A DNA stretch of 64,000 nucleotides from Lathyrus oleraceus (lineage: Eukaryota; Streptophyta; Magnoliopsida; Fabales; Fabaceae): assembly GCF_024323335.1 (NCBI RefSeq), contig NC_066581.1, forward strand, positions 292,774,536-292,838,535, read 5' to 3'. Within the stretch, counting starts at the first letter, position 1. Every line of letters begins with the position of its first letter. The position numbers were made by a program, and so were the translations under genes. The notes under the pieces are model-generated. The model was not told the origin of the DNA. It saw only the letters and a program-made list of their open reading frames with translations, and ran no database searches. Shown here in pieces: positions 3,885 to 61,600 of this stretch.

Positions 3885-4311
3885 GACCAGAAACCAAATT
3901 TCAGATCTGCTATGGGTTTTTCTCTGCTACGAGATTTCTCAAATCCAACCTTCCACAGTCCAATTTTTTACACAGCATTCGTTCATATTATCTAACACAG
4001 ATCATACTCATTCAATTCCAAAATTTCTAACCTTATTACATCTAATTCCTACGAATTTTCTTCAATTATATACCCATATCTCATTCATCCATAAGTTCAC
4101 AATTTGCAACATTCATCATCCAAATTAGAGTCAATTCAATGGCTTATCACTACCCATTGCATGTTAACCCATAATACCCATTAAACGACGATAAACCCCC
4201 CTTACCTGAGTTAATCCGGCGAATCCTTTAACTTCAAGCTTTTCCCTTCTTCAACCCTTGTTCTCTTGCTCTTCCTCTCTGCCCTTTTTTCCACTTTTGA
4301 GTCGCTTCTCT

Positions 4312-5472: not shown

Positions 5473-5527
5473 TGTAGCAGTAAATTCATGACCATTAAAT
5501 TATGGATAAACGTAACGTCAATAAAAC

Positions 5528-5538
5528 CAGAGTCGCCA
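5528..5538 (-). other. PBS-like word inside the D LTR
   Basis: TGGCGACTCTG on the minus strand lies about 55 nt inside the LTR end and repeats the first 11 nt of the true D PBS (28551-28567). It is altered by one base in the 5' LTR (near 28634-28643), and TGGCGACTC is kept in E (11946-11954). Confidence 0.7.
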
Positions 5539-8500
5539 CCGCGCTTTTATTGTTTCCAAAGGAAAAGGGAAAAGTATGAATAAAACCCAAAGATAAGAAG
5601 TTTGAAAATCAAAATTAATAAAATGCCAGATATTACAGCTAAGGGGGTTGGTTACACAGAGGGAAGGTGTTAGCACCCAAAGTGTCCTAGGTACTCCTAG
5701 GGAGCCATTTTTTATGTGTATATGTGTTTTTGGTATAAGAGATGTTTGCAATAAAATAGAGTGTCGGGATGAGAAAAGAATTCATTAATTATATTTTTAT
5801 GTTTGACAAGACAATGAGACTTGTGCCTACGTACCAACATAAAAATGAGGGATCAAAATCTCGTAGTTCATGGTATCAATTTCAAAATGAGTAGATTTCT
5901 TTTAATCAAAAATTAAGTTTACAAGAGGCATAAAGGAGCCTAAAAGAGTTTGAATGAGTGTTAGTTCTTTTTGTCTTTTGAAATTTTTAGTCAATATGGT
6001 TAAGTTCATTTACAAGTTTGATTTATGAAAAGAATTGACAAAAAGCAATGACATAAGGCCAAAGTTTCTAGTTTGCAATAAAGTCTCAGGTTTGAAATTG
6101 CAAGAAAAGAATTTTGAAAAAAGGGAGAGATTTTGAAATTTAAGAAGTGGGAGAAGATGAAGATGATATCCTAAGCATGAAATTAAAGGTTAAGAGTTGA
6201 AAAGATCTGACCAATGGGATGCAATCAAATAGACAAGAATGTCATATAGAAAACCCATTTCTCCTTTGGACTTTGAATCAAGCAATAATCAGCAAGCAAA
6301 TAATAATATGAAGAGCAATGCAACAAATAAAGATGGTCACATCCAAGCAAGCAAATTCCACAACAAGCAGTCTTCTTTGTCTTCTCATGTATCTGATGAC
6401 ACACTCCTTAGTTGGCTCAGAATAAGGTATTAGACACAGGTTCAAGACAACAATTGCATCAAGACCATGTAGCAGATGAATTCATGTGGATCCCAATACT
6501 TGCATTAGATGAAAACTCAAATCACAATAACTTGGTCTCAAAAATGTTGGCATTGGCCAAGTCCTTTTGCATAGGGGATGTTGCCTAATTCTAAGTCCAA
6601 AAGCTCATATCAAATCCAATAGTCCACACAAACATTTTTAAAGGTTTTTGTTGTTTATTAAGTATTTTAGGGTCCTAAGACCACAATCACAAACAAAATA
6701 CACAAACAAATATATACAATCACAATATATGGCTCAAGTGAGCAAAGTGAAAATGACATGAATATAAACAAGTTAAATGATATGTAAATGTAAAATGAAA
6801 TGGTAAATGACTTAAATTTAAATTGCGTAAAGTAAATGACTTAAAAATAAAAGGAATAATAATAAAAGTTAGTCAAATGTTAGTTGATTAGATGTTAGTG
6901 ATGTTTTGCTTTTCAATTGATTAAGTCATTCTTTGGAGAACACTCAACCCTCTATTCACAAGCATGGATCCTTGAACCAAGACATCTTCCAAAGGAAGGA
7001 AAAAAGACCAAGTTTCTACACAATACTGTAATACCCCAATTTTGGCCCTAAGATCCCTCATGGCATCATAACCTTGCATTTGCAAAGCCTCAAGGATCAT
7101 GAGCATCTTGGTTCCCTTTGCCTTTTCATGAGACCCCTTGTGAGTGGTTTGAGATCACCAAGCATGCTTGAATTTTTATATCATTGCTTTTCTCATTTTA
7201 TTTACTAACCAAAAGCAAAAAAATATGTCACTAACATTTCTTGTTTGTAGCTTGAAAAATCACACAGTCTAAAAGCTTCTAGGAGATCCTTTGTGCAATG
7301 ATAAGGTCAAGAGGAGATGAAAGAAAGCATGGTAATGGTTCCCAAAGCTCTCATCTATCAAATATGCTTCCCAAGTATCTCAATTCATCATTTTGATCAA
7401 AGCAAGTCAAAGGGTTTGAGGTTTGTTTCCCAAGGAAGCTCTAATTCATCTAATCATCAACAATGCCTTGCTCATGAATCAACCTCAACTCATGGTCAAA
7501 TACAATCAAGGGAAGTTATATAGTTCATAATTTCATGCATATTTGAACTTATTTGAGTTCCATCAATCATCTATTCATCAAGGTATGAGTTGTGGACTTG
7601 AGAAGTTGATCAGTCAATTCATCTGATTATCTTGAAATGCACTGAGACCTAACGTTTTATGTGTTGGTCAAATGGAGATGACCCCAAGAGCAAAAAATTT
7701 CTTAAGCACAATATGAACAACTCTCATGTTCATCAAAATTTTATTTGAAACTTGGAAGGTCATCTTCCATCCCAAGACATTATAGGTCATTTTGACTGAA
7801 ACCCTAATTTTGGGTCAACTTCCCAAGAACATAACTCATTCATTTTTCATGATTTTGGGATGAGACTTAATGCATTGTAAATATTATTATGTCTAATTCA
7901 AATGTTATGTTGAGAAAAATTTCAAAATCTCAAAAGAAATACATGTGATAATGCAAAACATTATAGGTCACTTTGGGCCAAATGCATTGAAATGTGAAAA
8001 AGTCCAACTTCAAGTGCCCATAACTTCTTCATTAAAACTCCAAATGATGCAAAATTTTAGTCCAAATTGATTATCTTGAAAATATCTACAACTTTCATGT
8101 TTAATATTGTATCATTTGGAGCTTGCATCATTGAGACAAAGGGGCTTGAACATTGGCCAAATTTGGAAACTTCACATATGCATGTTTTGCACCCTACACT
8201 TCAAGCTCAAATTTCTTTAATTTCCAAGGCCCAATTGGAGTTTTGATCAACATAGCATTTGTTCCTTATGCAACAAGCTTTCTAACCATTACTCATAAGG
8301 TGGTATTTGGAGTTTGGAAGCACCATTTTCGAAGACATGAAAAATTAAGTGCATTTTGTGAAAGCTATCTCAATTGCCATGCATGAGCTGATTACACTTA
8401 ATATACACGTCCATTTGCCTTTCACATGAACTCAGCAGGTTATTTCAGCCTTCATTGGGCCTTCCACATGCTCACACAAGCCCATGCAATGCAAAATCCA

Positions 8501-10779: not shown

Positions 10780-13704
10780 TGAAGAGGACTTTGAAAGGAC
10801 CAATTTCTAAACTCCTTCTTGTTCATTCTTTATTTGTTGATAGAACTTTTTGATGTGTGTGTTCTTGTGCTAGGAATTCCAACATTGAGCCAAATTGAGG
10901 AACCATTGCCATAAGCTCCTAAGAGAGAGAGAGATCTAAAAGCCATTGGAAGATCCCTAGGAGCTTGTTTTGATTGTGTGCTTGATTGTTTGAGTATTTG
11001 CTTATCTTGCTTGCATATTCCAAAGGATGAGAGCTACTTGGATCATCAATATGATCTCAAGAGAGGAACTCCATTTGTGGTCTTACTTCTTATCCTTCAT
11101 CTCTTGTATGCTTAGGACTTAGCCCTTCTTCTTCTTCCCTCCACTCTAACCCAAGCCAAAACTTTTGTGCAAACATTTAACACTTGTTTTCAAACATTAG
11201 AAACCTAAGCCTTATGCTTTTAATTTCCAAACTTTCTTTTTCATAACACTTATTTTGAATTGAATCCTTAAGTCAACTTTGACCATATTTTGTAAATACT
11301 TTTCATTAGTAAATATAACCCATTCAAATACTTTTTGTGGTTTCAATGGCCACCTTCTTAATTAAAACTTTTCAGAACCTTTAGCTATTAGGTTTGAGTT
11401 ATCATTGAGGTAAATGTAATACTCACCTATATCCTTAGTGATGGACAATGAGTCTTCCATGCTTATTATAGGGTTAACCCCTCACTAGCATGCTGAAGCT
11501 ATCCTCACATGGTGGATTTGTGGTTTTAGGTTGAGTTTTCTCCCTTGGATAACAAAAGACCTTAAGGCTTTTGGACCAATCAATTCACCAACTCATTTTG
11601 AGATTTTTACCCCGAACTATGAGGTTTTGATCCTAATATTTTTTAAGATGGTACGTAGGCAATGAGTTCATCCATCCAAACACAAAATGTAAATGAACTT
11701 GCATATTCTTTCCTCATCTCTTCAATCATGTTTGCACAAATACATTTTCACAAAACACCAACCTTACAACAAGTATGAAAAGGGCTCCCTAGGAGTACCT
11801 AGGATGTTTTGGGTGCTTAAAACCTTCCCATTGCATAACCAACCCCCTTACCCAGATCTCTGACATTTTTACTAGTTTTTGATTCGATAAAACTTTTAGG
11901 TTTTTTTCGCTTTTTAACCATTCCTTTGGATAAATAGAAGTGCGGTGGCGACTCGACTTATATGGTTTACCTTAGATTTAGTCAATATCTCTAATAGTAA
12001 CGAATACCCCTCTACAAATACCATGAAATAGGGGAGACTTACAATCTCACTTACTAGAATGATATGTCTTTAGGGTCAAATTTAGCTCTATGTTAAGCAA
12101 TTGTAATTGGACTTATGTAGAAGTCACAACTATCTGAGACTTGGCAATAGAAATTTTGGTGTTAATGCATGTTAGAGAAATGGTATAATGAACCATACTC
12201 CTAAAACATACCACACACAAAAAAGAAAAAGATCAAAGGATGGACCTATCTCATCCATACTGGTATTGGTTCATCTAACACAAAGTTATTGATGAACCAA
12301 TTAGCCTTAGGATATTGAGACTTCATTGGTCAATGGAAAGGATGGGAGAGAATGGGATTGAAGATGAAGAGGGAGGGGAGATGAGAGAAACACAAATTGG
12401 TCATGGGAGGAATTTTATCAAATTAAAATCATTCATTCATTTTGGGAGATGAAATGTACATTTCATCCATCCCCTAAATCCAATGATTTTAACTTAACAA
12501 AAGTCAAATTAACCTTGACCAAGGCCCAAACACATAGTCCAACATCACAAGTCAATAAAAATGGCTCAAAACAATTCCTACACAATTAATCAATTAAAAA
12601 TGCATTTAAATTAAATTTAGTTTGGTCAAAACCTAAAACCTCTTTAAAACACCAAATAAATGGCCAAGATATTTATCCTAGGTCAAACAAGGTCAAAGGA
12701 CCTTAGACAAAAAATTTCATAATTTTTGAAAAGTCGGAAGTATTTTTAAATAATTAAAAATATGCACAAAAACAAGTAATTCTTTAAAAATATCAAAATT
12801 AATCCAAAAAATAATTTTAATTCAGAAAATGAAAGAAGAAAATATTTAAAGATTTTTGGTGAAAGTCCCATATTCTTTGGATTAAAAATTAAATTAATAT
12901 GAATTAATCAAAATAAAAGGATTAAATGAAAAATCAGAAAATAAAAAGAAATTCAAAAAAACAAGGGTCATCATATCTCCCTCATTAATTTAGGAGGCAG
13001 ATCTGATGGTCAAGCGCGCGCTTCCACCAAACACTGCAGTAAATGCGTGCACACGAATGATAATCATTTTGGATGTGTGACACTAGAACATGAGAACCAG
13101 ATCAGATGGCTTGGATTGATCCAGTGCACCACCGGAGCCCTAGCTCCGGTCATCTTCTTCGGTGATCACCACTAGTCTGGTTCAGGCTCAACTCCGGGGA
13201 AAATGAAAAGTGAATACACAAATTTGAAGGAAAAATGCTCAGGAGCCCGAATCTGGCCTCAATTTTCTCCTATTCCAAGTATATAAAAAAGATACAGGGA
13301 TTTGAATTTTTAGGATCATGAACTGAGTTGCTTCAATTTGACCTCAAAGCAACTCAATCTTCTTACCTACACTGATAGGACTTCAGACAACCAAAAATCA
13401 CAAAGAATGGTGAATAATTGAGGGAGAATCGAAGAGATAAAGTTTTTGAAAATTCACCTTCAATGGAGCTTCAAACTTGCTCGATCTTGGTTCCAATTGT
13501 GCTTGGCCTTGCTTCAGATGCTTGATGGAAGTGATTAGGATCAAGAAATGGTCTGGACTCTTGGAGTTTCAATATCAAAACAGATGGAGAATTGAAACTC
13601 GATTTTCAAAAGAAAACCTTCAAAATTATCCTTTAATGGAAGGGGTTTGGATTGCAGGTTCAAAGCTTGGGTATGAGGTCCTTAATTCTGAGCAATGAGG
13701 GTTG

Positions 13705-16377: not shown

Positions 16378-17808
16378 ACATATCAAGGATAGATTACCTG
16401 GGGAAACATAAAACGAATCCGCTGGGAAACACAAGAGGAAGTAGATTATTGTAACCGGGTATTGGGTAAGAGTAAGGTACTCGTAAATCGAGAAGAATAT
16501 TACCAGTTACTGGGTAACAAACTTTCGAGGGACCAAAAGCATCCATCTAGGTAAGATCTAGAAAGAAACGGTTAAACAAATGACTCTACCCAATGAGGAT
16601 ATATCTTAAGGGGGTGGTTCCATCCAGACAATCAAATGGTGGAGGAAACTGAAGTAATAATCATCCACGAGAAAATAACTCAGTGGGGAATGAGAAAGAT
16701 TAAATTCTTTCTGCTTAAGAGGCTGACACCCTACAATTGAGGGAGGACAAATGCACCAAATCTGCATGGGGAAAGTATATCACGATAGCAGAGGATCGGA
16801 AAAATAAGGAATCAAATGCAATAATAATGCGTAATGAAATATCTAATGTATGAATGTATATGTATATGTATATATGACTGATGATTATGCTGACAAAACA
16901 ATCGCAAAGGACACAAATATCACTAATCTGTATCATCGCTACAACACTCGACTAATCTTGATAGGATGGAGGCATCAACTGGAGAAAACGCTAGGGATGA
17001 ACATAAACCATCCATCACAAACCACTCAGCCATGACTAGGGAGATAGAAAAGATCTGTTGAGGATCTGAATCATCAACTCTACAAGGGAATTTTAGGTCA
17101 ACACCATGCCACATGGGAGACAACCTTGCAAAGGACCAGAAATATTGCTCAAGAATCAGTGCTGGCGGGGTTCAGGAGTGAACCCTACTGGCGACCTGAG
17201 GGGAATAAAAATCATGTGCTGAATATTTATAAACCGCTGAGAATACGCGCCTACCGCTTAGTCGGGGAGGCAATCATAAAACTCGATTGGAGAAATTGAA
17301 TTGTCGTTGGGAAGAAAAAAGTGACCAAACCAACTGCTTGGGGAAGACCAACAATGTTCCGCATTTTTAAGACTTATCTGTTCTTTGACTGTTGTTGATA
17401 TTCATTAATAAAATCGATTGCTTTTTAAAAGTAATTTTATTATTTTAAGAAAAATGATTTTGATTTTTAAATTCACATTTAGAATTATCATTATAAAATT
17501 TAATTATATTTAGCGGAAAGATAAATAAGAGTAGAAACAAATGGATAAAAAGCTCAACTTTATTTAATGGAATGGTAGTCTGTAAATGACAAGACTCCAT
17601 AGATCTTTACAAAAGTTGAAAAATGACAATTTACATGGAAAAAGGCTACATTGAATACAATTATCACTAATCCTTCTACCAACTTCAATATCCATTATGC
17701 TCTTGGCTTCGGTTGAGGATGAATCAGAGTTGACTGACTTGCTCAAAACTGTTCTCAAGATCGGAGACCAACCGAATGCAGTTACTTGCCATAATCCCTA
17801 ATTTTTGC

Positions 17809-17841
17809 ATAGATTTCCCCAAGGTGGGGTACTCCATCTAT
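17809..17841 (-). other. Third 3' UTR hairpin of D (non-GAAA loop)
   Basis: Outer stem ATAGAT/ATCTAT (6 bp), 6-nt bulge, inner stem CCCC/GGGG, 5-nt loop, followed by GCAAAAATTAGG on the minus strand. The architecture and trailing GCAAAAAT word match the two GAAA hairpins next to it. Confidence 0.65.
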
Positions 17842-17879
17842 CGGGATAAATTTTATATTTTATGTCTCTAATTTTTGCC

Positions 17880-17907
17880 TGGATCGCCCTTTCGGGTTTT
17901 CAATCCA
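17880..17907 (-). other. GAAA-tetraloop hairpin 2 of D
   Basis: Read on the minus strand: outer stem TGGAT/ATCCA, 6-nt bulge TGAAAA, inner stem CCC/GGG, loop GAAA, then GCAAAAAT. The counterpart in F (58566-58593) has the same length, bulge and loop but outer stem TAGAC/GTCTA. Confidence 0.75.
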
Positions 17908-17926
17908 CCGAGACGCTCATTTTTGC

Positions 17927-17956
17927 CTAAGTCACCCTTTCGGGTATTTAACTTAG
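17927..17956 (-). other. GAAA-tetraloop hairpin 1 of D
   Basis: Starts 22 nt after the pol stop on the minus strand: outer stem CTAAGT/ACTTAG, 5-nt bulge TAAAT, inner stem ACCC/GGGT, loop GAAA. F has the same hairpin at 58613-58642 with outer stem ATAAGT/ACTTAT. Confidence 0.78.
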
Positions 17957-17978
17957 CGAGTTGTTCTTTTTTATTTGT

Positions 17979-20900
17979 TTAGGCGAAGTATTTCTTGACT
18001 GCATCGGCGTTCACAGGACACGTGAACTCTTCACCATCCATAATTATAAGAATCAAAGCGTCTCTTGAAAAGAGTCTCTTTAACAACATATGGGCCTTCA
18101 TAATTAGGAGTCCATTTGCCCCTAGCATCTGGTTTGAAAGATAAAATCTTCTTGAGCACAAGGTCACCTTCTCTGAACACACGAGGCCTGACCTTCTTAT
18201 CAAATGCTTTCTTCATTCTCTATTGATATAACTAACCATGGCACATGGCAGTCAACCTTTTCTCTTCAATTAAGTTCATCTGGTCATATTTGGTTTGACA
18301 CCATTCAGCTTCAGTCAACTTGGTTTCCATCAAAACACGTAATGATGGGATTTCAACCTCTATTGGGAGCACAACTTCCATGCCATAAACAACTGAAAAA
18401 GGGGTTGCCCCTATTGAAGTGTGGATGGATGTACAGTACCCATGCAAAGCAAATGGGATCATATCATGCCAATCCTTGTCGGTTACAACCATTTTCTGAA
18501 TGATCTTCTTAATGTTCTTATTTGCAGCTTCAACAGCCCCATTCATCTTAGGTCTGTAGGGAGAAATATTATGATGTGCAATCTTGAAGTCTTTGCAAAG
18601 AGCTTCCATCATATTGTTAGTCAAGTTAGATCCATTATCAGTAATGATTTTACTTGGTACACCATAATGGCATATAATCTGATTCTTGATAAACCTTACA
18701 ATAACTTGCTTGGTTACATTTGCATACGATGCCGCTTCAACCAACTTTATGAAGTAGTCAATAGCCACTACAATGAAACGATGTCCATTCGAAGCTTTAG
18801 GCTCAATCATGCCAATCATATCAATTCCTCACATGGAGAAGGGCCATGGAGAGGAAATGCCATTCAACAGTGTCAAAGGAACATGAATCTTATCTACATA
18901 AATTTGACACTTGTTGCATTTCTTCACAAACTTGCAACTGTCAGATTCCATTGTCACCCAATAGTAACATGCTCTCAACATCTTCTTAGCCATAACATAT
19001 CCATTGGGATGAGTACCAAAGGAACCTTCATGGACTTCAGTCATCAACAAGTCTACTTTGTGTCTATCCACGCATCTAAGCAAAACCATATTGAAGTTTC
19101 TCTTATAGAGCACATCACCATTCAGGTAAAAATTGCCATCTAATCTTCTCAAAGTTTTCTTATCTTTCAAGGATGCCCCAGGCGGGTAAATCTGACTTTG
19201 GAGGAAACACTTGATATCAAATAACCATGGTTTTTCATCTTTGGTCTCTTCAACAACAAACACATGAGTTGGCCTATCAAGACGCATCACATTCAAGTTA
19301 GGAACTTCATTCCAAAATTTCACCACAATCATTGAAGCCAATGTTGCAAGAGCATCTGCCATCCGGTTTTCATCTCGGGGGATGTGATGAAACTCAACCT
19401 TTGTAAAGAAATTTGAAATCCTCCTCGCATAATCTCTATATGGTATCAAACCGGGTTGATTCGTCTCCCATTCATCTTTGATCTGATTTACAACCAAAGT
19501 TGAATCTCCATAGACGTCAAGATACTTGATTATGAGATCAATGGCCTCTTCAAGCCCCATAGTGCAAGCTTCATACTCAGCCATATTGTCCGTACATTTG
19601 AAAGTCAATCTAGCTGTAAATGGAAAATAAGTTCCTTGAGGAGTAATAATCATTTCCCCAATTCCATTACCATATTAATTAACAGCTCCATTAAATATCA
19701 TTCCTCAACGGGAACCAGGTTTTGGCCCTTCTTCAAGCAATGGTTCATCACAGTCTTTCATTTTCAAGTACAAAATCTCTTCGTCTAGAAAATCATACTG
19801 CACTGACTGATAATCTTCAATCGGTTGGTGAGCCAAATGGTCAGCCAAAACACTACCTTTAATTGCTTTTTGAGATAAGTATTCAATATCATACTCGGAT
19901 AACAACATCTACCAACGGGAAATCCTCCCAATTAAAGCAGGCTTATCAAAAATGTATTTAATTGGATCCATTTTGGATATCAACCAAGTAGTATGGGTCA
20001 GCATATACTGACGCAGACGCTTAGCAGCCCAAGCCAATGCGCAACAAGTCTTTTCAAGCATGGAATACCGAGTATCACAGTCGGTGAATTTCTTACTGAG
20101 GTGGTAAATATCATATTATTTCTTTCCAATTTCATCTTGTTGAACAAGAACACAACCCATACTCTCTTCAAGCACAGTCAAATACATGATCAATGGTCTT
20201 CCTTCAACAGGTGGAGACAGAATCGGAGGCTCGAGCGGATACTCTTTAATATTGTCAAAATCTTTTTGGTAATCTTCGGTCCAATCAAAACACTGATCTT
20301 TCCGAGGAAGCTTGAATATAGGCGCATATGTGGCAGTCATATGCGATATGAATCTTGAGATATAATTCAAGCGACCGAGAACACCTCTGACTTGCTTCTC
20401 AATTTTGGGCGCAGGCATCTCTTGTATTGCTTTGACCTTGGCAGGATCAACTTTAATACCTTTCTCACTGACAATAAATCCCAACAACTTACCAGAACGA
20501 ACACCAAATATACACTTCGTGGGATTCAAGCGGAGTTTGTACTTCCTCAAATGCTAGAATAACTTCAACAAATGCTCAACATGTTCTTCTTTATCACTTG
20601 ATTTGGAAATCATATCATCAAAATAGACTTCGATCTCTTTATGCATCATATCATGAAAAGAGTGGTCATAGCTCTCTGGTACGTTGCACCAGCATTCTTT
20701 AAACCGAAAGGCATCACTCTATAACAGAATGTTCCCTAGGGTGAGTTCTCCTCAACTTATGCTTGATCAGCGGGAATTCTGGCTTTAACGGCAATCTATG
20801 CTCCACAATCTCAAAATCCAAACCAGACATGTCTTGATAGGACAAAGCAAACATATCTGAATACTCTCGGAAAAGATCAACCAACCCCTTCTTAACCTCT

Positions 20901-21115
20901 GGATACAGTTGAGACCCAATCTTGACTTCCTTCACATTATCTTCAGAACCCAGGCTGTCTAGCTCAATCTGATCTTCGAACGGCTGAATGGATTTTTCCT
21001 CATGCTCAAGTAGACGACTATCTCTTCATCAGTCTCTTCCTCATCCTCAAACACAGGGAAATTAATGTTTGGAGAGGGAGTAGAATCATTGTATTCAATG
21101 GGTTTGGGAAACAAC
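17979..21115 (-). pseudogene. pol of D (RT, RNase H, second RNase H, integrase), broken
   Basis: Read on the minus strand: N-terminal RT fragment ending in RRTHP (about 20745-20990). A deletion follows that removes the RT fingers and the first catalytic Asp, then RT resumes from the MPFGL region (about 20740 down; YFDDM-type site near 20610) through thumb and connection (20116-20550). Next come RNase H and linker (19705-20110) and a second, archaeal-like RNase H at 19350-19700, whose first active-site Asp reads Asn (FNGA) with a stop nearby. Integrase follows: HHCC zinc region and catalytic core with ITDNG (18232-19130), and a C-terminal part ending in NADAVKKYFA at 17979. Dual RNase H is typical of the Tat lineage. 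At least one further frameshift lies near 18050. Confidence 0.88.
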
Positions 21116-21211
21116 CTACATAATGATTTGATATTTTGATTTTAGAGAAGTGAATTATGACCAAATATTATGCAAATGGACAATTATTATTATGTATGTT
21201 TTTATGATTAC
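21116..21211 (-). other. Candidate intron between pro and pol of D
   Basis: Ogre elements are known to carry an intron between gag-pro and RT. On the minus strand GT occurs at 21211 (AAAATG/GTAATC) and AG at 21116 (TTATGTAG/GTTGTTTCC), bounding 96 nt of AT-rich sequence. The gag-pro ORF stops at 21364, and the pol frame seems to start just after the acceptor. The sites are picked by eye; other donors upstream are possible. Confidence 0.4.
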
Positions 21212-21363
21212 CATTTTCAGAAAAACGAAAAGTAAAAATAAAACATCATAGATGTGGATGAATAAAATTGCATTTTATTGATGATAATTGAGAAATGCCT
21301 AACAATGTCCACTTCTCCCTTAGTCATAGGAGAAGGATTTTTCTTAAAACAATGAAAAAAAAA

Positions 21364-24300
21364 TTACTTAGAGCGATGGACAATAACGGGAACATCAACA
21401 TCAACCCAATTGTTGCAAGTCTCGCCATGTGTGACAAATTTGGCGCAGTCTTCATCTTCATCACCCTCGATCACAACACCTGAGTGTTGTTCATTACCAT
21501 GGATGAACCCTCTGCTACGGAAACTCGGTTGCACTTCTTTAGCTTTAACATTAGATGGCCCTTGTTGAATTCCTAATTCGGCCATATTCTTGTTCTCTGC
21601 AACTTCTACCATTTGGCCTCACTGATCTGTACTGCCTGCCTTAATAGCTTTCTGAGCATCTTTGAAAGAAGACATGGGTAAAAGATGACAGATAGCTTAC
21701 CAAAAGTGCTTTCTCTCCACTAACAACGACAAGCTTGCCGTTCTTCACAAATTTTTATTTCTGGTGCAGAGTGGACGTTACAACTCCAACCTCATGAATC
21801 CATGGCCTTCCTAATAAATAGATATAGGCCGGGTGAATATCCATTAGTTGAAAAGTAATTTGAAAATCACTCGGACCTATCTTCACTGGAAGGTCCAGTT
21901 CTCCAATAACGGTTTTGCGAGAACCATCAAATGCTTTGACAATTACGCCACTATACCTCATCGGGGCGCCTTGATAGGATAATCTGGATAGAGTTGATTT
22001 TGGGAGTACATTCAGAGAAGAACCGGTATCAACTAGCACATTGAACAATGCATCCTCCTTGCAATTCATTGATATATGTAGTGCTAGATTGTGATTTTTG
22101 CCTTCCTCGGGAAGCTCTTATCACAAAAACTCAGATTGTTGCAAGAAGTAATGTTAGCCACAATGTGGTCAAACTGATCCACAATAACGTCGTGCTCGAC
22201 ATAGGCTTGCTCCAACACTCTTTGCAATGCTTCTCTGTGCGCTTCAGAATTCATTAGTAGAGACAGTACTGAAATCTTTGACGGGGTTTGGAGCAACTGC
22301 TCCACCATATTAAATTCACTTTTCTTAATCAGATGTAGCAATTCATCATCATTGTTAGGCTTCAGCCTACTGGATTCACCAGACTGACACACGAGAGCAC
22401 CAATTGGGTTCATCGTAGGCATATCAACCTTCTTACTGATTGCAGCCTCTTTTATATCCTTTGGAAAAACGGGACCAAAAATGCGACCGCTACGGGTCAC
22501 CCTCACAATATCAGCTATATTCACAACAGAATTTGTCGTAGGCAATGGAAACTCTTGACCATTCTCCACCGTTGTGGAATTATACTGATAAGGCACGACT
22601 TTATCGGATATATATGGGACAGGGCCCGCTAACCGTATCACTAACGGTGATACCGATCTATTGATGTTGTTGTTGCTGCTACTATCAAATTGAATGACTA
22701 CCCGCTTAGGGGTCTTAAGCACTGGTATTATCACATTGACATCATCTACTTCCCTTGACTGACAAATTTGGATAAGCCCTTCATCCATCAATCTTTGAAT
22801 GTCCCTCTTGACAATGACACATCCTCGAGGGTTCACGCTACATACCACACAACCATCATGGTCATGCTCACAATCACTAACCAAGCAGATATCTCTATGA
22901 ATTGCAACCAAAGACTGTCTGATATGGCGAACATCATAAACCTTATATTCTCCAGGACAACCATCTACCATGTTGATAGAGGAGTTACCATGAGCGGGAA
23001 ACGGATTGGCTTTTACATTCGGTGCATGGTCCTCAAAAGACACCATCCCACTCTTCACAAGTTTATGGACTTCGTACTTCAATGGGTAACAATTCTCAAT
23101 ATCATGGCCGGGAGCTCCTTGATGAAAGGCACATCAGAGTTCAGGCTTATACCACTATGGAAGTGACTCAGGAATTTGAGGTGGATTTCTCAGTTGAAGT
23201 AGGTTCTTGAGAACCAAAGATGGGTAGAGTTCGGCGTATGACATAGGAATAGGGTCAAAAGAGACCTTTTTCCTCTCTAAGTTTTGTTGTTGATTATTAT
23301 TGTTGTTGATTATTATTGTTGTTGTTGTTGTGGGTTCTTTGTTGCGGTTGTTGTTGAATTGACACTGATTGATTGCTGGAATTATTTGAAAACATTGAAA
23401 GTACTGATGAAACTTGATTTTGATGCTGACGCGGTTGAGGATTTCTTCTTATGTGAGGCATCCTCTGCCTCCCTACGGACACTGCATTGGTTTCTCCTTC
23501 CTTCTTCTTGGCAAAACTGCTACCATATTTCCTACTAGACGATATCTCTTCCTTAGACAGACGTCCTTCACGGACTCCTTCCTCTAACCTCATCCCCATG
23601 TTTACCATTTCGATAAAGTCATTGGGGGCACTGGCAATCATATGTTCGTAATAAAACGAACTTATGGTCTTTAGGAAAATCTTCGTCATCTCCTTCTCTT
23701 CCAATGGAGATTAATCTGAGCAGCAACCTCTCTCCACCTTTGGGCATATTCTTTAAACGTATCCTTGTCCTTTTGAGACATAGACCTCAGTTGGTCTCTA
23801 TCAGGAGCTATGTCCACATTATACTTATATTGTTTAACAAAAGCTTCTCCCAAATCGTTGAACGTGAGAACACTTGCACTTTCTAGCCCCATATACCATC
23901 TCAGAGCAGCACCAATCAAATTGTCTTGAAAGTAGTGAATCAGTAACTGATCATTATCAGTTTGAGTTGACATATTTCTGGAATACATAACAAGGTGGCT
24001 AAGTGGACAAGTGTTTCCCTTATACTTTTCAAAGTCAGGGACTTTGAACTTCATCGGGATCTTCACATTTGGTACCAGGCAAAGTTCAGCAACACTTTTC
24101 CCAAACAAGTCATTTCCTCTCAGAGTCTTCAATTCCTTTCGCAACTCAAGAAACTGATCCTTCATTTCATCCATTTTCTCATAAACATCTGGGCCCTCAG
24201 ACGGCTCAGAATGGTAGATGGTGTCCTCAACACGAGGCAAGGTATGAATAACTGGAGGTGGCACAGACATGACCGGACTAGATGTCGGCATAGAAGCAAA

Positions 24301-24576
24301 TGTAGGCGCAAACCCTTCAGGCATGAAATTTGGTGGCATTCCCCACGGGAATCCAGCAGGAATAGATGGACCATATTGAGTAGCAGCAACAGGCAGAGAT
24401 GAAAGTCCTCTGAGGAGGAGGAGTTGCAGGAGTTGGTGAAGACTAATTCTGCGTAGCAAGAACATACTCCATCAATCAGTTAGACGAGCAATCTCATCCT
24501 TTAGTTCTTTGTTCTCTTGTTCCAAATGCTCCATAATACTGTATTGATTGTCGTGAGTGTTGTATCGGTGAGTCAT
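21364..24576 (-). pseudogene. gag-pro of D, broken by frameshifts and stops
   Basis: ATG at 24576 (MTHRYNTHDNQ), then a Glu/Lys-rich coiled-coil start, a frame excursion around 24380-24480, and the capsid-like Gag core (23700-24380, with PKFKVPDF-type and RWYMGLES words). A frameshift near 23700 is followed by a Gln/Asn-rich tract (23280-23340, CAA/AAT repeats). A knuckle-like CAFHQGAPGH motif sits near 23130, then a long linker (22084-23082). The aspartic protease (21755-22084) has VDTGSSLNVLP as active site and LLGRPWIH as the second conserved loop. The tail ends at 21364. At least three frameshifts separate these parts. Confidence 0.85.
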
Positions 24577-24828
24577 CTTGGCTGAAGCACAGAAGAATAA
24601 CCGATAAGACATCTGGCGGAAGAAAACCTATTATGCGAATGGTGCATGAAATGCAATGTTTTTGTTTATTTAATTTCAAGGAACATACTATTTTATTTGC
24701 AAATATATAATATCAATAATAACAATTTGATTGACCATAAAAATTTCTTTTATTCATATAATTTGGAAGGATTACACTGAGTACAATTTCAGAAATCAAA
24801 GTACAAACACAAGAGAAAAGGAATCTAA

Positions 24829-26340
24829 TCATCCTAAGGATCCCCTAACAACGGTGTCAGATGATTTGGCTGCAGGCGCGTACTTCCTTTGGATGCGTTG
24901 GATCTCGGACTCAAAATAAGTCTTCATCTGAGCCTTCTCAAGGACAAGCTGATCAACAATCTTCTTCCAAGCACCGGAAGGCTGAGGTATACTAGAGGAA
25001 GATGAACCCTCTGGCTCTCTCTGTCTCTTTACTGCTCGATCTTCAAGAAGTTCAATAAGTGCATCTTTGTCCTTTGACTCAAGCTACAACTCCTCATGCT
25101 TTCAGCTTAAAGCATGGAATCGCTCTTCCCACATATCTGTCTCTTGCTTCATCTTGGCGAGTGCATCTTCCAACTCCTCTATATCTTGGTTAGGGAGAGT
25201 TGATGGCTTAGCCACAACCAAAGACATAGGTCTGTCACAAGCATATGTCATCTTCAATTCCAAAGCTCTCTTCTTCACCCAAGTAGTGTAAACTTCCAAA
25301 GCTACACAGTTGCACGGACCAAGCTCAGATCTTCCTTTCCTATGCACATTATGCCAATCATGTACCATTTTCTACTTCAAATGTTAGGGATTTTTACCCT
25401 CTTTATAGAAAAGACCTTCTAACTGGGTGTTATTAGGTTTGTCTCTCAAGGGGAACCCAAGTTGACGACGAGCCAAAGCAGGGTTGTACTTGATTCCTCC
25501 TTGTGTACCAATGAGAGGCACATTAGAGAATTCACCACAACTATCAATAATATCCAAGCCACTCAAGGCAGAATCATACCAAACAATATCATCATTAGTG
25601 AGGGACATAAGTCTATGAGACCAACGTAGACATTGCTTATTTTCCACAAAAGCAGGTGTCTGAGGCAAGTGCGAAATAAACCACGTGTACAGAAGAGGAA
25701 CACAACACACAATAGTTCTGCCACCTTTAGAATTCCTTAAATGCAAAGAGAAATACATATCACCCAACAAAGTTGGAACTGGATTCCCAATCAAGAAGAT
25801 TCTAATGGCGTTAATATCAACAAAATCGTCAATGTTAGGGAACAAAGCCAGACCATAGATGAGCAACACAAAGATGGCTTCAAAAGAATCCACACTACCG
25901 ACTTGAGCAAAGACAGTAGCTTTCCCTATGAGAAACTCAGAAGTCAACCCAAATATTCCTCCTTTCTTCACCCAATGAGCCTCAATCTCAGACTTTTTCA
26001 TATGAAGAGCTTCAGATATAAGATGAGATCTGGGAATCTCCTTCAATCCACTAAAAGGCATCTTGTCAGAAACAGGTATTCCCAAGAGATGGGCATACTC
26101 CTCAAATGTAGGCATACGCTGATAATTGGGGAAAGTGAAGCAATGGTAAAGAGGATCATAAAACTGAACCAACACACTCAAGAGTCCTTCAACCACATCA
26201 GTAGATATCACAGATAGAAGCTTCCCACAACGTTGCTTGAAGTCTAAGGGATCTAATACAAAAGATGATAGCTTCCTTATCTCTTTCAAATCTGGACATT
26301 TGAAACTATACTTCTTAGTGTTCCTTCGTCCATAATCCAT
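24829..26340 (-). pseudogene. ORF1 of D (Ogre-specific, plant-mobile-domain-like)
   Basis: ATG at 26340 (MDYGRRNTKKYSF); the same frame reaches a final TGA at 24829, 503 codons, with four premature stops: TAA 25384-25386, TAG 25372-25374, TGA 25102-25104, TAG 25084-25086. Three of them look like CAA/CAG to TAA/TAG changes. The first 318 codons resemble the domain found in Ogre ORF1 and in plant mobile domain proteins (words such as MPTFEEYAHLLGIPV). The C-terminal part is charged and coiled-coil-like. Function of ORF1 is unknown. It sits in the 5' position typical of Ogre, so it is a retrotransposon gene and not a host gene. Confidence 0.85.
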
Positions 26341-27563
26341 GGTCTGAAAATATTTGTAAATAAAACCTCAGTTCCTTGAAGTTATTTTTCGTGTGGTGAA
26401 TGTTATGATGTGCATGAATGCATGGATGCAACAATCACAAACAAGGGATCACACACAAGGCAAACACAAACAGAGGACAAGGGATGAATCAAGTTATTGC
26501 CAAGATCAATCATCCATTTTGGTGGATTATGGTTTTCACCTTATCAACACCCAAGTTCCATTGATATTAATAAGACTTGATTGGATCAACCAAGAATCAA
26601 AGGGTTTGTTGTGAGTCACGAGCATGGAGTCAAGTTAAGAACCATCCCAAAGGAGTGTACTAAGGATAAAAACCTATAGATCATGTTCTAAATGTTGGTG
26701 TAAGCCCTAGAGGCCAATACTTTTGGTACTTGTATCGAATTATTTATTAATAATAAAAGGCTTTTTCTTTATTATGTTTGTTTAATAAAGTCCCTAGAAT
26801 AGATAGTCCGTTTAATGTATCAAGTGTGACTTAATCATGAGATCACATTAAATATAAGGACACTATTCTTAAAGTATCCGTAGTCGAGCTTTATTGTGAA
26901 GTGGGATAACATTAAAGCATGAAGACTATTATGTTTATAGACTGATGATCGCATCTCATAGATCATGGATAAGGAGTTATCAAATCTTAAACATAGGTAT
27001 GAATATTAAGAGTAATATTTATACTAGATTGACCCGTTATGAGAATACTATATAGAATGTTATCCAAAGTGTCATAAGTTATTCTCATGGTGATAATGGT
27101 GTATACCACCCTTCGACCTGAAACCACTATGGACCCTAGATGTAGAGTCGAGTGCCTTAGTGCTGATTAAACGTTGTCCGTGACTGGATGACCATAAAGA
27201 CAGTTGATGGGTACTCCACGAATCATGCTAAAGGACATGAGTGACCTAGATGGAATTTTCCCATCCTGCGTAACAGGATAAATGTCTATGGTCCCAATAT
27301 TGAACTGGACAAGGATGACACGGTCTATGCCTTGTGTTCAATATAGACATAAGGGCAAAAAGGATAATTATACACATAAGTATTATCACAGAAGTATTTG
27401 TCAGATCACATGACATTTTCGTGTCTTGGGTAGCAGTGATGTGTTGCTAGATACTGCTCATTGTTTATTATGTCAAATGCGTGATTTAGTATAATTGCCA
27501 ATGTCGCGAAAACCTACAGGGTCACACACAAAGGACGGATTGATAAGAGATAGAGTAACTAAG

Positions 27564-28567: not shown

Positions 28568-31122
28568 CTTGATTTTTATAGCGGTATATTCATGAACATT
28601 AAGCTATGGACAAACTTAACATCAATAAAACCAGAGGCGCCACCGCGCTTTTATTGTTTCCAAAGGGAAAGGGAAAAGTACGAACAAAACACAAAGATAA
28701 GAAGTTTTCAAATCAAAACTAATAAAATGCCAGAGATTACAGGTAAACGGGTCGGTTACACAGAGGAAAGATGTTAGCACCTAAAGTGTCCTAGGTACTC
28801 CTAGGGAGCCTTTTTTATGTGTGTATGTGTTTTTGTTATAAAAGATGTTTGCAATAAAATAGAGTGTGTGGATGAGAAAAGAATTCATTAATTATATTTT
28901 TGTGTTTGACAAGACCTTCGGACTTGTGCCTACGTGCCAACATAAAAATGAGGGATCAAAACCTCGTAGTTCGTGGTATCAATTTCAAAATGAGCCGATT
29001 GCTTTTAATAAAAAATTAAGTTTACAAGAGGCATAAAGGAGCCTAAAAGAGTTTGAATGAGTGTTAGTTCTTTTTGTCTTTTGAAATTTTTAGTCAATAT
29101 GGTTAAGTTCATTTACAAGTTTGATTTATGAAAAGAATTGAAAAAAAGCAATGGCATAAGGCCAAAGTTTCTAGTTTACAATAAAGTCTCAATTTTGAAA
29201 TTGTAAGCAAAGAAGGTTTTTGAAAAGGGGAGAGATTTTTAAATTTAAGAAGTGAGAGAAGATGAAGAGACTATCCTAAGCATGAAATTAAAAGTTAAGA
29301 GTTCAAAAGATCTGACCAATGGGATACAATCCAATAGACAAAAATGTCCTATAGAAAACCCATTTCCCCTTTGGACTTTGAATCAAACAATAATCAGCAA
29401 GCAAATAGCAATATGAAGAGAAAGGCATCAAATAAAGATGGCCACATCCAAGCAAGCAAATTCCACAGCTAACAGTCTTCTTTGTCTTCTCAAGTATCAG
29501 ATGACACACTCCTTGGTTAGCTCAGAATAAGGTATTAGACACAGGTTCAAAGTAACAGTTGCATCAAGACCATGTAGCAGATGAATTCATGTGGATCCCA
29601 ATACTTGCATCATATGAAAGATCAAATCACAATAACTTGGTCTCATAAATGTTGGCATTGGCCAAGTCCTTTTGCATAGGGGATGTTGCCTAATTCTAAG
29701 TCCAAAAGCTCAGATCAAATCCAACAGTACACACAAACATTTTTTAGGGTTTTTGTTGTTTATTAAGTATTTTAGGGTCCTAAGACCACAATCACAAACA
29801 AAATACACAAACAAATATATACAATCACAATATATGGCTCAAGTGAGCAAAGTGAAAATGACATGAATATAAACAAGTTAAATGATATGTAAAAGGCAAA
29901 TGAAATGGTAAATGACTTGAATTTAAATTCCGTAAAGTAAATGACTTGAAAATAAAAGCAATAATAATAAAAGTTAGTCAAATGTTAGTTGATTAGATGT
30001 TAGTGATGTTTTTCTTTTCAATTGATTAAGTCATTCTTTGGAGAACACTCAACCATCTATTCACAAGCATGGATCCTTGAACCTAGACATCTTCCAAAGG
30101 AAGGAAAAAATGCCAAGTTTCCACACAATACCATGAAAGGGGGGAGCCTTACAATCTCACTTACTAGAATGCTATGCCTTTAGGGTTAAAATTTAGCTCT
30201 ATGTTAAGCAATCATAATTGGACTTATATAAAAGTCACAACTATCTGAGGCCAGGCAATAGAAATTTGGTGTTAATGCATGTTAGAGATATGGTATAATG
30301 AACCATACTCCTAAAACATACCACACACAAAAAAGAAAAAGATCAAAGGATGGACCTATCTCATCCATACTGGTATTGGTTCATCTAACACAAAGTTATT
30401 GATGAACCAATTAGCCTTAGGATATTGAGACTTCATTGGTCAATGGAAAGGATGGGAGAGAATGGGATTGAAGATGAAAAAGGAGGGGAGATGAGAGAAA
30501 CACAAATTGGTCATGAGAGGAATTTTATCAAATTAAAATCATTCATTCATTTTGGGAGATGAAATGTATATTTCATCCATCCCCTAAATCCAATGATTTT
30601 AACTTAACAAAAGTTAAATCAACCTTGACCAAGGCCCAAACACATAGTCCAACATCACAAGTCAATAAAAATGGCTCAACACAATTCCTACACAATTAAT
30701 CAATTAGAAATCAAATTAAAAATGCATTTAAATTAAATTTAGTTTGGTTAAAACCTAAAACCTCTTCAAAACACCAAATATGACCAAGAAATTTATCCTA
30801 GAACAAAGAAGGTCAAAGGACCTTAGACAAAAAAATTTATAATTTTTGAAAAGTCAGACGTATTTTTAAATTTTTAAAAATATGCACAAAAACAAGTAAT
30901 TCTTTAAAATTATCAAAATTAATCCAAAAAATTAATTTTAATTCAGAAAACGAAAGAGGAAAATATTTAAATATTTTTAGTGAAAGTCCCATATTTTTTG
31001 GATTAAAAATAAAATTAATATGAATTAATCAAAATAAAAGGATTAAATGAAAAATTAGAAAATAAAAAGAAATTCAAAAAAACAAGGGCCATCAGATCTC
31101 CCTCATTAATTGAGGTGGTAGA

Positions 31123-57808: not shown

Positions 57809-58565
57809 AGTTCCAAAAAATATGATGAATCAATCTTGAGTACGAATTGAAGGGTGAATTTCAGAAGATACTTATGATGTAATGTTATGTATGTAAGATG
57901 CTGATGTATGTTCGGGTTTCCGCAGGGGATTATGCAAATGCAAGGTTTGCAAGTTATGCCAAGTATCGTTGGGTTTTGCGGGGGGAAATATTGGGAATGG
58001 CAATGGTGATTGGGCTTAAATTTTGTTTGGGGAGAGTGAACTTACTTCCTGACATTGAAAAACTAGAATTTCTGACGACCAAGCAAGCACTAGGTGTGAT
58101 AACTGAGGATTTTTGTCGAGGAATGTCTTGATTGGGGCAAGTCCAAGGGACTGCATGGCATTTTTGTGTTAGGGATACCAAACATGTTTTTGGGTTACCT
58201 TTAGATAATTTGAAAGATAAGTAATTTTATGTTTCCCTTAAAGGTTTTTTATATAGTAAAAGTTGACTACCGAAAAATTCCCAATGTGATATCAATTTAA
58301 GAAAAGTCACATTTCACAAGCAAAGCAGGAAAAGTAAAACAATTGAGCACATATGAGGGAACTGATTTTATTGATAAATGGTCCCAAAAATGGGTAATTT
58401 GTATAGAGGAAGCAATTCCTAAAAGAGGTGATTGCGAAAAATGGGTCATTGACTGTCCTTTAGTCTTGCTTTAGAAGGAAAGTGACTGGATTGACTTGGT
58501 GAGGAGTGAAGAAAGACTCGTTGCGGGATGCAACCTATCGCTTTTATGAATCCCTAATTTTTGCC

Positions 58566-58593
58566 TAGACCTCCCTTTCGGGTTTTCAGTCTA
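58566..58593 (-). other. GAAA-tetraloop hairpin 2 of F
   Basis: Minus strand: outer stem TAGAC/GTCTA, bulge TGAAAA, inner stem CCC/GGG, loop GAAA. Same 28-nt length as the D counterpart (17880-17907). Confidence 0.75.
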
Positions 58594-58612
58594 CCAGGAT
58601 ACCCATTTTTGC

Positions 58613-58642
58613 ATAAGTCTCCCTTTCGGTTTTTTAACTTAT
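58613..58642 (-). other. GAAA-tetraloop hairpin 1 of F
   Basis: Minus strand: outer stem ATAAGT/ACTTAT, inner stem CC/GG, loop GAAA; 30 nt, as in D (17927-17956). Begins 21 nt after the pol stop at 58664-58666. Confidence 0.75.
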
Positions 58643-58663
58643 CGGGCTCTTTTTTTCTTTTTT

Positions 58664-61600
58664 CTAAGCGTAGTATTTTTTACTGCATCCACGTTCACGG
58701 GGGATGGAAGATCTTCACAATCCATATTTGAAAGGATTAAGGCTCCTCCGGAGAAAACCTTTTTTACAACATATGAGCCTTCTTAGGTCGGCGTCCATTT
58801 GCCCTTTGGATTGGTGTGGATTGGTGTAATCTTATTCAACACAAGGTATCCGGCCTTGAGAATGCAAGGAAAGGCCTTCTTATCATGGGCCCTTTTGATG
58901 CGCTTTTAGTAAAGCTGGTCGTGGATGATGGCTGCCAAACGCTTTTCATCAATGAGGTTCAGTTGGTCAAATCGGGCTTGTACCCACTTAGCTTCGTCAA
59001 GCTTGACACCGGTAAGAATTCTGAAAGAAGGAATGTCTACTTCAACGGGTAGGACTGTATCCATGCCATACACTAGAGAGAATGGAGTTTCCCCATTGGA
59101 GGTACGTATTGAGGTGCGGTAGCCATGCAATGCGAACGAGAGCATTTCATGCCACTCTTTGTAGGTTTCCACCATCTTCTGCATGATTTTTTTGATATTC
59201 TTATTAGCTGCCTTGACAACGTCATTCATCTTGGGCCTATATGGTAACGAGTTGTGGTGTTCAATTTTGAAGCTTCAACCCAACTCTTTCATCATTTTGT
59301 TATTGAGGTTAGATCCATTATTAGTAATGATCTTGTTGGGGACCCCATAACGATAAATGATCTCCTTTCTTATGAATCGAGTTACTACTTGTCTTGTGAC
59401 GTTAGTATAGGAGACTGCCTCCACCCATTTAGTGAAGTAGTCTATGGCTACCAAGATGAAGCGATGTCCGTTTGAGGCAGTTGGCTTAATATGTATGATC
59501 ACGTCAATGCCCCACATGGAAAATGGCCAAGGTGATGTTAGGACATTGAGTGGCATTGGTGACACATGGATCTTGTCCATGTAGATTTGGCATTTATGGA
59601 ATGTTTGGACATGGTGGTAACAGTCAACCTCCATAGTCATCCAATAATAGCTGGCTCTCAAGATTTTCTTTACCATGGTGTGTCCACTAGCATGTGTCCC
59701 AAAGGATCCCTCATGGATTTCCATTATGATTTGGTTTGCTTATTGCTTGTTCATACGTCCCTCTTGTATAAAACCCATCCACTTAAGAAGAACTTGGATG
59801 ACAGCTTCTGAAGATACTTCTTGTCGGTGATGGATGCATCCTTAGGGTAATCCTGGCTTTCTAAGAACTTCATGATATCGTAAAACCAAGGATAACCATC
59901 GGTTTCGTCTTCTGCTGCCAAATAGTGGGCAGGCTCGTCCAAGTAGTCAAGGTGGAAATTTGGTGCTTCATTTTTCCATTTGACCTTAAACATGGATGAA
60001 AAAGTTGTCAGGGCGTTAGCCAACTGATTTTCCTCTCTAGAAATATGGTTGAATGTAATCTTGTCAAAGTAAGGGATCAGTTTCAGGACATGCTCCTTAT
60101 AGGGGGATGAACTTGGGATCTCTATCTTAATCACCTTTTACATGGTTGATGACTAAGTCTGGATCTCCATAGACTTCAAGAATTTTGATTCTGAGATCAA
60201 TTACAACTTTAATGCCAAAGATACGTGCCTCGTATGCTGCCATATTGATGGTACATTCGAAACACAACCTTGTAGTCAAGGTAAATGAAAACCAGTTATG
60301 GAGGTGATGATTGCCCCAATGCCATTATCGTGAGCGTTAGAAGCTCCATCAAAAACTAGAGTCCACCGAGATCTAGGTTCTGGGCCTTCCTCGGGGTCGG
60401 GTATGTCGCAATCTCTGATCAACATGATTTCCTCGTCAGAGAATTCAATGTGCATAGACTGGTAGTCTTCCAAAGGTTGGTGTGCAAGATAGTTGGACAA
60501 TACACTCCCTTTGATATCCTTTTGAGTGACACGTTAGATGTCGTACTCGGTTAAAGCCATTTGCCAATGGGCTACTCTATCGGTTAGAGCGGGCTTCTCG
60601 AAGATGTACTTGACGGGGTCCATCTTGGATATTAACACCGTTGTATGAGTGAGCATATACTTTCTCAGGCGTTTGATAACCCAAGCAAGCGTGGAACAAG
60701 TCTTCTCAAACATTGAACATCTACTGTCGCAATTGGTAAACGTCTTGCTCAAGTAGTATATGACATGTTCTTTCCTACCAGTCTCGTCTTGTTGGCCAAG
60801 GACACATCCCATGTATCCTTAAAGAACAGTAAGGTACATTATCAATGGTCTTCCAAACACAAGAGGCATCAGGATAGGAGGTTCTTTTAAGTACTCCTTC
60901 ATCTTCTTAAAAGTGTTTTCGCAATCGTCATTCCAAATGACAACTTGATCCTTTCCAATAAGTTTGAAGATTGGCTCACAAGTAGCCTCAAGGTGAGATA
61001 TGAATCTAGTGTTATAGTTCAATTTACCTAGAAATTCTCAGACTTCCTTCTCGGTTTTGAGTGCAGCCATAACTTGTATGGCCTTTACCTTCTCAGGATC
61101 TACCTCAGTGCCACGTTGGCAGACGATAAAACCTAGTAGTTTTCCAGATCTTACTCTAAACGTGCATTTGTTTAGATTAAGCCTCAACTTGAATCTTATT
61201 AGTTGTTCAAATAGCTTTTCCAAATTAATAAGATGCTCCTCTTTGCCTTGAGATTTGGAAATCATATCGTTAATGTGTACCTCGATCTCTCTATGAATCA
61301 TATCATGAAAGAGTGTGACCATGGCTCGTTAGTAAGTTACGTCGATGTTCTTTAGTCCGAAGGGCATGACCTTATAGCAGAACATCCCCCATGGGGTTAT
61401 GAAAGTAGTCTTTTCCATATTTTCTTGAGCCATCATGATCTGGTTATAACCGGAGAATTCGTCCATGAAGGAGAAAAAAGAGAATTGAGTGTTGTTATCC
61501 ACTAGCACATCGATAGTGGGAAGTCATCTTTGGGACTTGCTTTATTCAAATCTCTATAATCTACATGTATCCTTACTTTGCCGTCCTTTTTGGGCACGAG

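Follow-up and report, generated by a model that had tools for sequence, protein, structure and literature searches.

To our knowledge, the Ty3/gypsy retrotransposons of plants have so far yielded only a few structured RNA elements that act in cis. The closest described systems come from retroviruses and from plant LTR retrotransposons. The CTE of type-D retroviruses is found at the 3' end of the genomic RNA and follows a two-fold symmetric plan, with two lobes that bind independently (PMC4330390). In Rous sarcoma virus, whose RNA has a very long 3' UTR, the RSE directly follows the gag stop codon (PMC5580461). In plants, ENE triple-helix elements were described as structured elements in the 3' UTR of LTR retrotransposon RNAs, for example in Evade (PMC12501189), and the 3' regions of Tat-group elements (Tat/Ogre/Retand) are rich in tandem repeats, such as the Gmr9/GmOgre minisatellites, which are made up of repeat blocks located in the region from pol to the 3' LTR; these arrays can be long and, in Retand, family-specific (PMC3305785; PMC11963269). 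Ogre elements carry an additional RNase H between RH and integrase, and their RNA is only partly spliced, with the intron located between protease and RT in pea and Medicago Ogre (PMC6317226).

Here we describe a motif of hairpin units that lies behind the pol stop codon of two pea elements, D and F, both located in a stretch of 64,000 nt of chromosome sequence (NC_066581.1; the window). All data come from one genome (3.80 Gb), and the L-numbered loci are further stretches fetched from it.

The hairpin units of elements D and F

Element D lies on the minus strand. Its coding part (18232..26364) is interrupted and has the Ogre layout according to Pfam: an extra DUF7745 ORF upstream of gag (25387-26364), which we take to be the usual Ogre ORF1, then gag (23689-24468), aspartic protease, RH, an additional RH (RVT_3) and integrase. 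The order RT_RNaseH_2, RVT_3, Integrase_H2C2 and rve on the minus strand places the additional RNase H as in Ogre; such a domain is also present in Retand, and the lineage of D is assigned here by layout. The pol frame ends with the integrase tail ...KKYFA and a TAA codon (17979..17981, minus strand). Past this stop the D frame stays open for ~36 codons, through both hairpins (17870-17978, minus strand), but it closes sooner in F and in locus L015, and on these three stop-codon readthrough was rejected as a candidate role. The main LTR blocks of D are ~93-94% identical, and its 3' LTR is split by other sequence into pieces (2473-3183, 5471-6411 and 12152-13002) that match the 5' LTR at ~28575-31867. 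Of element F, pieces of RT (under the Pfam cut-off), RH, additional RH and integrase were found; its pol stop codon is TAG (58664..58666, minus strand) and its pol frame is broken elsewhere. The window also contains two minus-strand ORFs of exactly 1456 aa each (35595-39965 and 42175-46545), 6580 bases apart, which apparently represent tandem or nested copies of another element lineage.

Our starting point was a sequence-only reading, which reported twin hairpins of 30 and 28 nt after the pol stop of both elements. These were found on the minus strand in both cases: CTAAGT...ACTTAG (30 nt, 17927-17956) and TGGAT...ATCCA (28 nt, 17880-17907) in D, and ATAAGT...ACTTAT (30 nt) and TAGAC...GTCTA (28 nt) in F. 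The three outer-stem pairs that differ between D and F are all Watson-Crick exchanges, as was claimed. The reported distance of 22 nt to the stop holds for the noted stem in D, but the outer helix described below starts 18 nt (D) and 16 nt (F) past the stop; likewise, the inner stem reported as CCC/GGG is CC/GG in hairpin 1 of F.

The hairpins are real, but they are parts of a larger motif. Each unit is built in the order P1, G, P2 (5-8 bp), variable tip, P2', GCAAAAAU or GCAAAAAUUA, P1', with an asymmetric internal loop between the helices P1 and P2 in which the G lies opposite the conserved GCAAAAAU or GCAAAAAUUA. The outer helix P1 (usually 3-5 bp), which encloses GCAAAAAU as one strand of the internal loop, had been overlooked. 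The best-conserved part is this P1/P2 internal loop and not the GAAA loop and A-rich bulge that had been emphasized; GAAA is one tip among several, and among 118 distinct units CGAAAG is present in 42. Of the 118 tips, 91 allow an inner stem of 3 bp or more, compared with 24.5 expected from shuffled tips.

In D there are three units, all on the minus strand. Unit 1 (17916..17960) has P1 CTC/GAG, the G, P2 CTAAGT(T)/(G)ACTTAG, a tip with CCCGAAAGGG and the loop strand J2 GCAAAAAT at 17919-17926; it is matched by the covariance model at 17916-17958 (E 1.5e-10, with D among the model sequences). Unit 2 (17864..17914), which lies 1 nt from unit 1, has P1 GTCTC/GAGAC, P2 TGGATTG/CGATCCA, a GAAA tip and J2 GCAAAAATTA at 17869-17878 (model E 1.3e-17). 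A third unit (17794..17847), absent from the earlier description, is located 3' of the other two and has no GAAA loop; it is composed of P1 ATCCC/GGGAT, P2 ATAGAT/ATCTAT, the tip CCCC-ACCTT-GGGG and J2 GCAAAAATTA at 17799-17808 (model E 3.3e-13). F has two minus-strand units that abut each other with a gap of 0 nt: unit 1 (58601..58647) with P1 GCCC/GGGT, P2 ATAAGT/ACTTAT and J2 GCAAAAAT at 58605-58612 (model E 1.6e-10, with F among the model sequences), and unit 2 (58550..58600) with P1 ATCCT/GGGAT, P2 TAGACT/GGTCTA and J2 GCAAAAATTA at 58555-58564 (model E 2.8e-17). Some relatives have four units per array.

The same geometry is found in the other loci. Among 98 units, 92 have 3-5 contiguous P1 pairs, counted with the P1' offset picked to favour P1 pairing, and 90 have a G as linker; loop strands of 10 nt (57 units) and 8 nt (31 units) prevail, with other lengths in 10. 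There are frequent G.G mismatches at P2.1, and an F-like subfamily (L030, L031 and L046) has a common T.T mismatch at P2.4 of unit 1, halfway along this helix. For 65 pairs of neighbouring units the distance between P1' and the next P1 is -1 to 2 nt in 34 (0 nt in 16 and 1 nt in 14); the other 31 are at least 6 nt apart, 27 of them 15-28 nt, and include the pair from D to F, which are two different elements. As a spacing of 0-1 nt is seen in many neighbours, the abutting P1 helices of two units (a dyad) could stack into a rod, with its two A-rich loops on opposite strands and a pseudo-two-fold symmetry.

Thermodynamic folding gives a mixed picture. Compared with dinucleotide shuffles, the isolated D hairpins fold well (z -3.87 and -3.15; 0 of 200 as good) and those of F weakly so (z -1.70 and -1.58; 11 and 15 of 200 as good), while the third D unit alone gives z -1.54, with 12 of 200 shuffles as good. 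A 171-nt stretch of D folds better than shuffles (z -3.06); for a 151-nt stretch of F, whose best fold disrupts hairpin 1, no such advantage was found (z -0.07, with 88 of 200 shuffles as good). When 17 dyads were folded freely, both full units were drawn in 8 (F, L005, L011_2, L015_2, L017_1, L017_2, L028 and L033). In D and L002 unit 2 was drawn whole and P1 of unit 1 was left undrawn; unit 1 was lost or altered in L011_1, L015_1, L018, L030 and L031, and unit 2 in L012 and L032. The z of the dyad fold lies below -2 in 8 of the 17, F (-1.29) and L017_2 (+0.47) being among those where it does not.

Covariation, strand and conservation

It was proposed from the four hairpins of D and F that the RNA structure is selected, and this is supported well past them by unit alignments, by tree-based simulations and by a sample of raw matches. 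In a sequence-only alignment of 27 units (MAFFT), both sides change in 12 of 16 pairs, and pairing holds in 85.9% of the cells, versus 21-48% with slid partners. In 92 distinct model-aligned units, an alignment that leans towards structure through its fitting to the model, the values are 89.9% and 15-44%. The cells paired, the double-change cells and the covariation score exceeded all 500 shuffles in all three pair-count runs (first set, 27 units and 92 units), the first of which still contained L012:7084-7109 (E 0.075), elsewhere dropped as a chance match. Two further measures were hardly above the shuffles: pairs with a double change, where 50, 5 and 14 of 500 shuffles were as high in the three runs, and further pair types, where 485, 422 and 22 were. 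Since these two of the five measures were not clearly above shuffles, a tree-aware null was built, in which Fitch changes are placed anew along a FastTree tree built from the units.

Against this null, 86 units show 11 Watson-Crick to Watson-Crick changes on the same branch in P2 (null mean 0.9, max 5), and 118 distinct units show 13 (null mean 1.4, max 7). Three cut-off or gapped rows were left out across the 86- and 118-unit sets, and the second appearance of two L012 units from the latter. In the 118 units, 98.0% of the P2-core cells are paired; the null mean is 81.4% and its maximum 95.7%, with 0 of 1000 tree-based simulations as high. The P2 letters here come from the model-fitted alignment, and loci L030-L033 and L042-L056 were drawn from one match list of a 3'-strand pattern, many of them for unusual stem letters. 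The P1 results, including those with 86 and 118 units, lean towards structure because the P1' offset was optimised and the null was not refitted. For single pairs, this tree-aware test gave a modest result: E is below 0.05 for 3 of 13 pairs with 45 units (P1.2, P2.3 and P2.4) and for 2 of 13 with 86 units (P2.3 and P2.4), and in the latter test the third-ranked pair lies outside the structure (E 0.112).

Two analyses are free of fitting to the model, namely the 27-unit MAFFT alignment and a sample of 100 listed matches among the 41,474 exact matches to a 32-nt pattern of one tip class. The sample was chosen on tip and loop letters only and consists of raw matches. P2 is fully paired in 95 of the 100 (shuffled mean 43.6, max 57), which are not 100 independent events, because all lie in the initial 12.1 Mb of a single chromosome and represent few classes.

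The wobble pairs bear on which strand is involved. G.U was found 62 times and A.C 13 times in 942 core-pair cells of the 118 units, and 48 versus 2 times in 500 cells of the 100 matches, counts that are dependent since wobbles are inherited within clades. Such a bias is not expected of a DNA palindrome or of an antisense RNA, so the sense RNA is likely the form under selection.

The dyad is also conserved as a non-coding sequence. Between F and D the identity is 0.59-0.72 in the coding part, 0.80 and 0.80 in the dyad units and 0.23-0.45 downstream. L018 versus D gives 0.79-0.84 (coding) and 0.90 and 0.90 (dyad), L028 versus D gives 0.83-0.92 and 0.88 and 0.94, and for L011, L015 and L017 the dyad identity is 0.68-0.88, with 0.30-0.79 in coding and 0.14-0.60 in downstream sequence. 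In these six (F, L011, L015, L017, L018 and L028), none of which was chosen by array similarity, the conservation of the dyad is thus roughly that of the adjacent coding DNA, and often higher; the high array identity of L001-L008 is biased because they were picked by similarity to the D array.

Distribution and relatives without detectable pol

Units are carried by 6 of 20 evenly spaced 10-kb samples from two chromosomes (L011, L012, L015, L017, L018 and L028), and extrapolation from these 20 samples suggests arrays of the order of 10^5 in the genome, though the margin of this estimate is wide. Exact matches to a 29-nt pattern number 8,680; read backwards, neither this pattern nor the 32-nt pattern has any. 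In a protein search of the window and the 20 10-kb loci, all 7 complete Ogre integrase tails have units behind them (a 56-aa Ogre-like fragment at L018 8406-8579 was left out of this count), and none of 3 tails taken for other lineages, by their identity of only 31-34%, has them. In seven pol-bearing loci P1 starts 6-18 nt past the homologous pol stop triplet, the frame of L015 being shifted there. No Rfam family reaches its gathering score in the window; a relaxed search with 401 bases of D and five loci returned only P31, with 13 and 19.5 bits versus the 40 required, which is not credible. In viral contigs a 16-mer of the loop occurs in 8 loci, which score 12.4-21.9 bits with the model (best E 0.0012, after preselection for the 16-mer) and were judged to be chance.

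One of the sampled loci provides a natural experiment. In L012 (5132-3237, minus strand) the dyad follows an Ogre-like gag, which Pfam sees weakly (E 0.053), and no Ogre pol homology was found between gag and dyad. This region is multicopy: of 4,882 candidates 40 were scored and 40 of 40 match, L012 included. Both dyad units were found in all 17 fetched copies of the pol-less family (16 relatives and L012), L057-L072 having been picked by similarity over a stretch that contains the dyad. Upstream protein homology was examined in 4 of the 17 (L012, L073, L074 and L075). In longer pieces of the last three, L075 has homology to gag and to the region after it and aligns with L012 over 2.1 kb, whereas L073 and L074 match the part that separates gag from protease; in forward-strand matches of L073-L075 with E up to 1e-4, no homology to protease, RT, RH or integrase was found. 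Relatives of the L012 type are apparently non-autonomous.

Within this family the dyad shows an identity of 0.74-0.83, versus 0.58 in the 30 nt before it; further upstream the values are 0.70-0.92 and the dyad does no better. The inner stem is CTTC/GAAG instead of CCC/GGG in 11 of the 17 copies, by eye. The gag-like frame, as read in 4 copies, ends about 290 nt upstream of the dyad, with a stop triplet there in 16 of 17, and further stops common to 15-17 copies leave none of the three L012 frames uninterrupted. Closer to the dyad there are open runs of 36-73 codons, which in 5 of the 17 copies extend up to it. Apparently, then, the dyad is retained without detectable pol and away from the main stop, and a short ORF nearer the dyad is possible. 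One locus speaks against this: L023 contains the gag-end region of this family (4117-4276) followed by a CCTCAGAGTTGA-type repeat, and no hairpin unit was found in its 10 kb despite the shared region.

Possible functions and known systems

What might such a motif do? The explanation that in our judgement fits best is that it is a cis-acting recognition element of the Ogre genomic RNA, most likely bound by Gag, to which we give a probability of roughly 0.4. The element would act in the sense (genomic) RNA, where each unit may display the unpaired strand GCAAAAAU or GCAAAAAUUA, opposite a G and between two helices. The helices would hold the shape of the loop, leaving the stem letters free to change as long as pairing stays, and two units joined P1 to P1 might make up a rod whose two loops would suit a protein that binds as a dimer or in pairs. 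More specifically, and more tentatively, the paired hairpins could be a genome tag, that is, a two-site RNA platform by which Ogre RNA is identified to its own assembly or trafficking machinery. The dyad would then mark the element RNA as a genome for Gag and the assembly machinery, and this tag would be common to autonomous elements and to their gag-only parasites. That the dyad is retained where gag is present and pol undetectable speaks for a function in cis, on the RNA itself. As the element is located 3' of the Ogre intron, it is part of both spliced and unspliced RNA, so that alone it cannot select the unspliced genome.

Recognition of the genome by Gag has two main rivals, a CTE-like role in export and an RSE-like role in stability. 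Splicing of Ogre RNA is only partial (PMC6317226), and the dyad might recruit a host export factor for the intron-containing genomic RNA, as the CTE does via NXF1; the dyad is placed similarly to the CTE, and if stacked it would have a comparable pseudo-two-fold plan (PMC4330390). This option is weakened by the relatives that still keep the dyad without detectable protease or RT, the flanks of the Ogre intron, since the region that holds the intron is lost in them. We know of no clear NXF1 in plants. In the excerpts of a plant review Nxf1 is mentioned once, for the animal and yeast pathway (PMC3605508). We regard nuclear export as unlikely, though less so than the other rivals. A position directly behind the stop, as seen for P1 in the seven pol-bearing loci, is what the RSE has behind the gag stop (PMC5580461), and a stability element could likewise shield an RNA with a long 3' UTR from nonsense-mediated decay. 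In the pol-less relatives the dyad apparently lies at a distance from the end of the gag-like frame, with the open runs noted above nearer to it, and this distance weakens both a decay-related and a termination-related reading; translation termination at the pol stop, one of the guesses of the sequence-only reading, is therefore disfavoured. In plant carmoviruses, moreover, protection went with an unstructured start of the 3' UTR and was abolished by a hairpin there, while a readthrough structure did protect from decay (PMC6277124). Altogether we consider a stability role improbable.

Other options are less probable still. The dyad might serve reverse transcription or RNA dimerisation, for example by contacting the 5' leader or a primer tRNA; by our reasoning, such functions would also need cis elements in non-autonomous relatives, which is in accord with the distribution of the dyad. 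The 8-nt complement of GCAAAAAT is absent from the sense strand of the window at 2401-32000, which contains three copies of its 7-nt core TTTTTGC. From this search, mainly of one register, base pairing between the A-rich loop and the element was rejected. A role in reverse transcription or dimerisation appears quite improbable. Least probable, and in our view very unlikely, is that the units are only a tandem repeat of the 3' UTR or a DNA palindrome without RNA function, a thought that the repeat-rich 3' regions of the Tat group invite (PMC11963269; PMC3305785). Against it stand the conservation of the units, which about equals or surpasses that of coding DNA and is not seen elsewhere in the 3' region, the number of compensatory changes, which is above the null, and the excess of G.U over A.C, which is not expected of a palindrome of DNA only.

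No description of the dyad was found in the titles and abstract openings of the papers searched on Ogre and on the RNA structure of LTR retrotransposons, a set of mostly freely accessible literature, so that it may have been described elsewhere. The main text of a Retand survey makes no mention of hairpin or secondary structure, and a 2025 survey of structured plant RNAs does not mention retrotransposons, transposons or Ogre. If the tag reading is true, tens of thousands of copies of a previously undescribed element exist in one plant genome. It would offer a handle on the export, protection or packaging of giant, partly spliced retrotransposon RNAs in plants, and on the way in which the machinery of full elements is shared by their non-autonomous relatives; the covariance model of the units may also aid annotation.

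In comparison with the known systems, the dyad resembles the CTE in position and, if its helices stack, in plan; the CTE is one stem-loop and the Ogre dyad consists of two abutting hairpins. The RSE is a sequence of 400 nt found at a stop codon, and the dyad of the pol-less relatives is seemingly not stop-proximal. ENE loops are U-rich on both sides, and here the dyad differs: its sense loop is A-rich on one side, with a G opposite GCAAAAAU. From the tandem arrays of Tat, Ogre and Retand elements it is set apart by its composition of 2-4 unlike units, which are common to several families and which covary.
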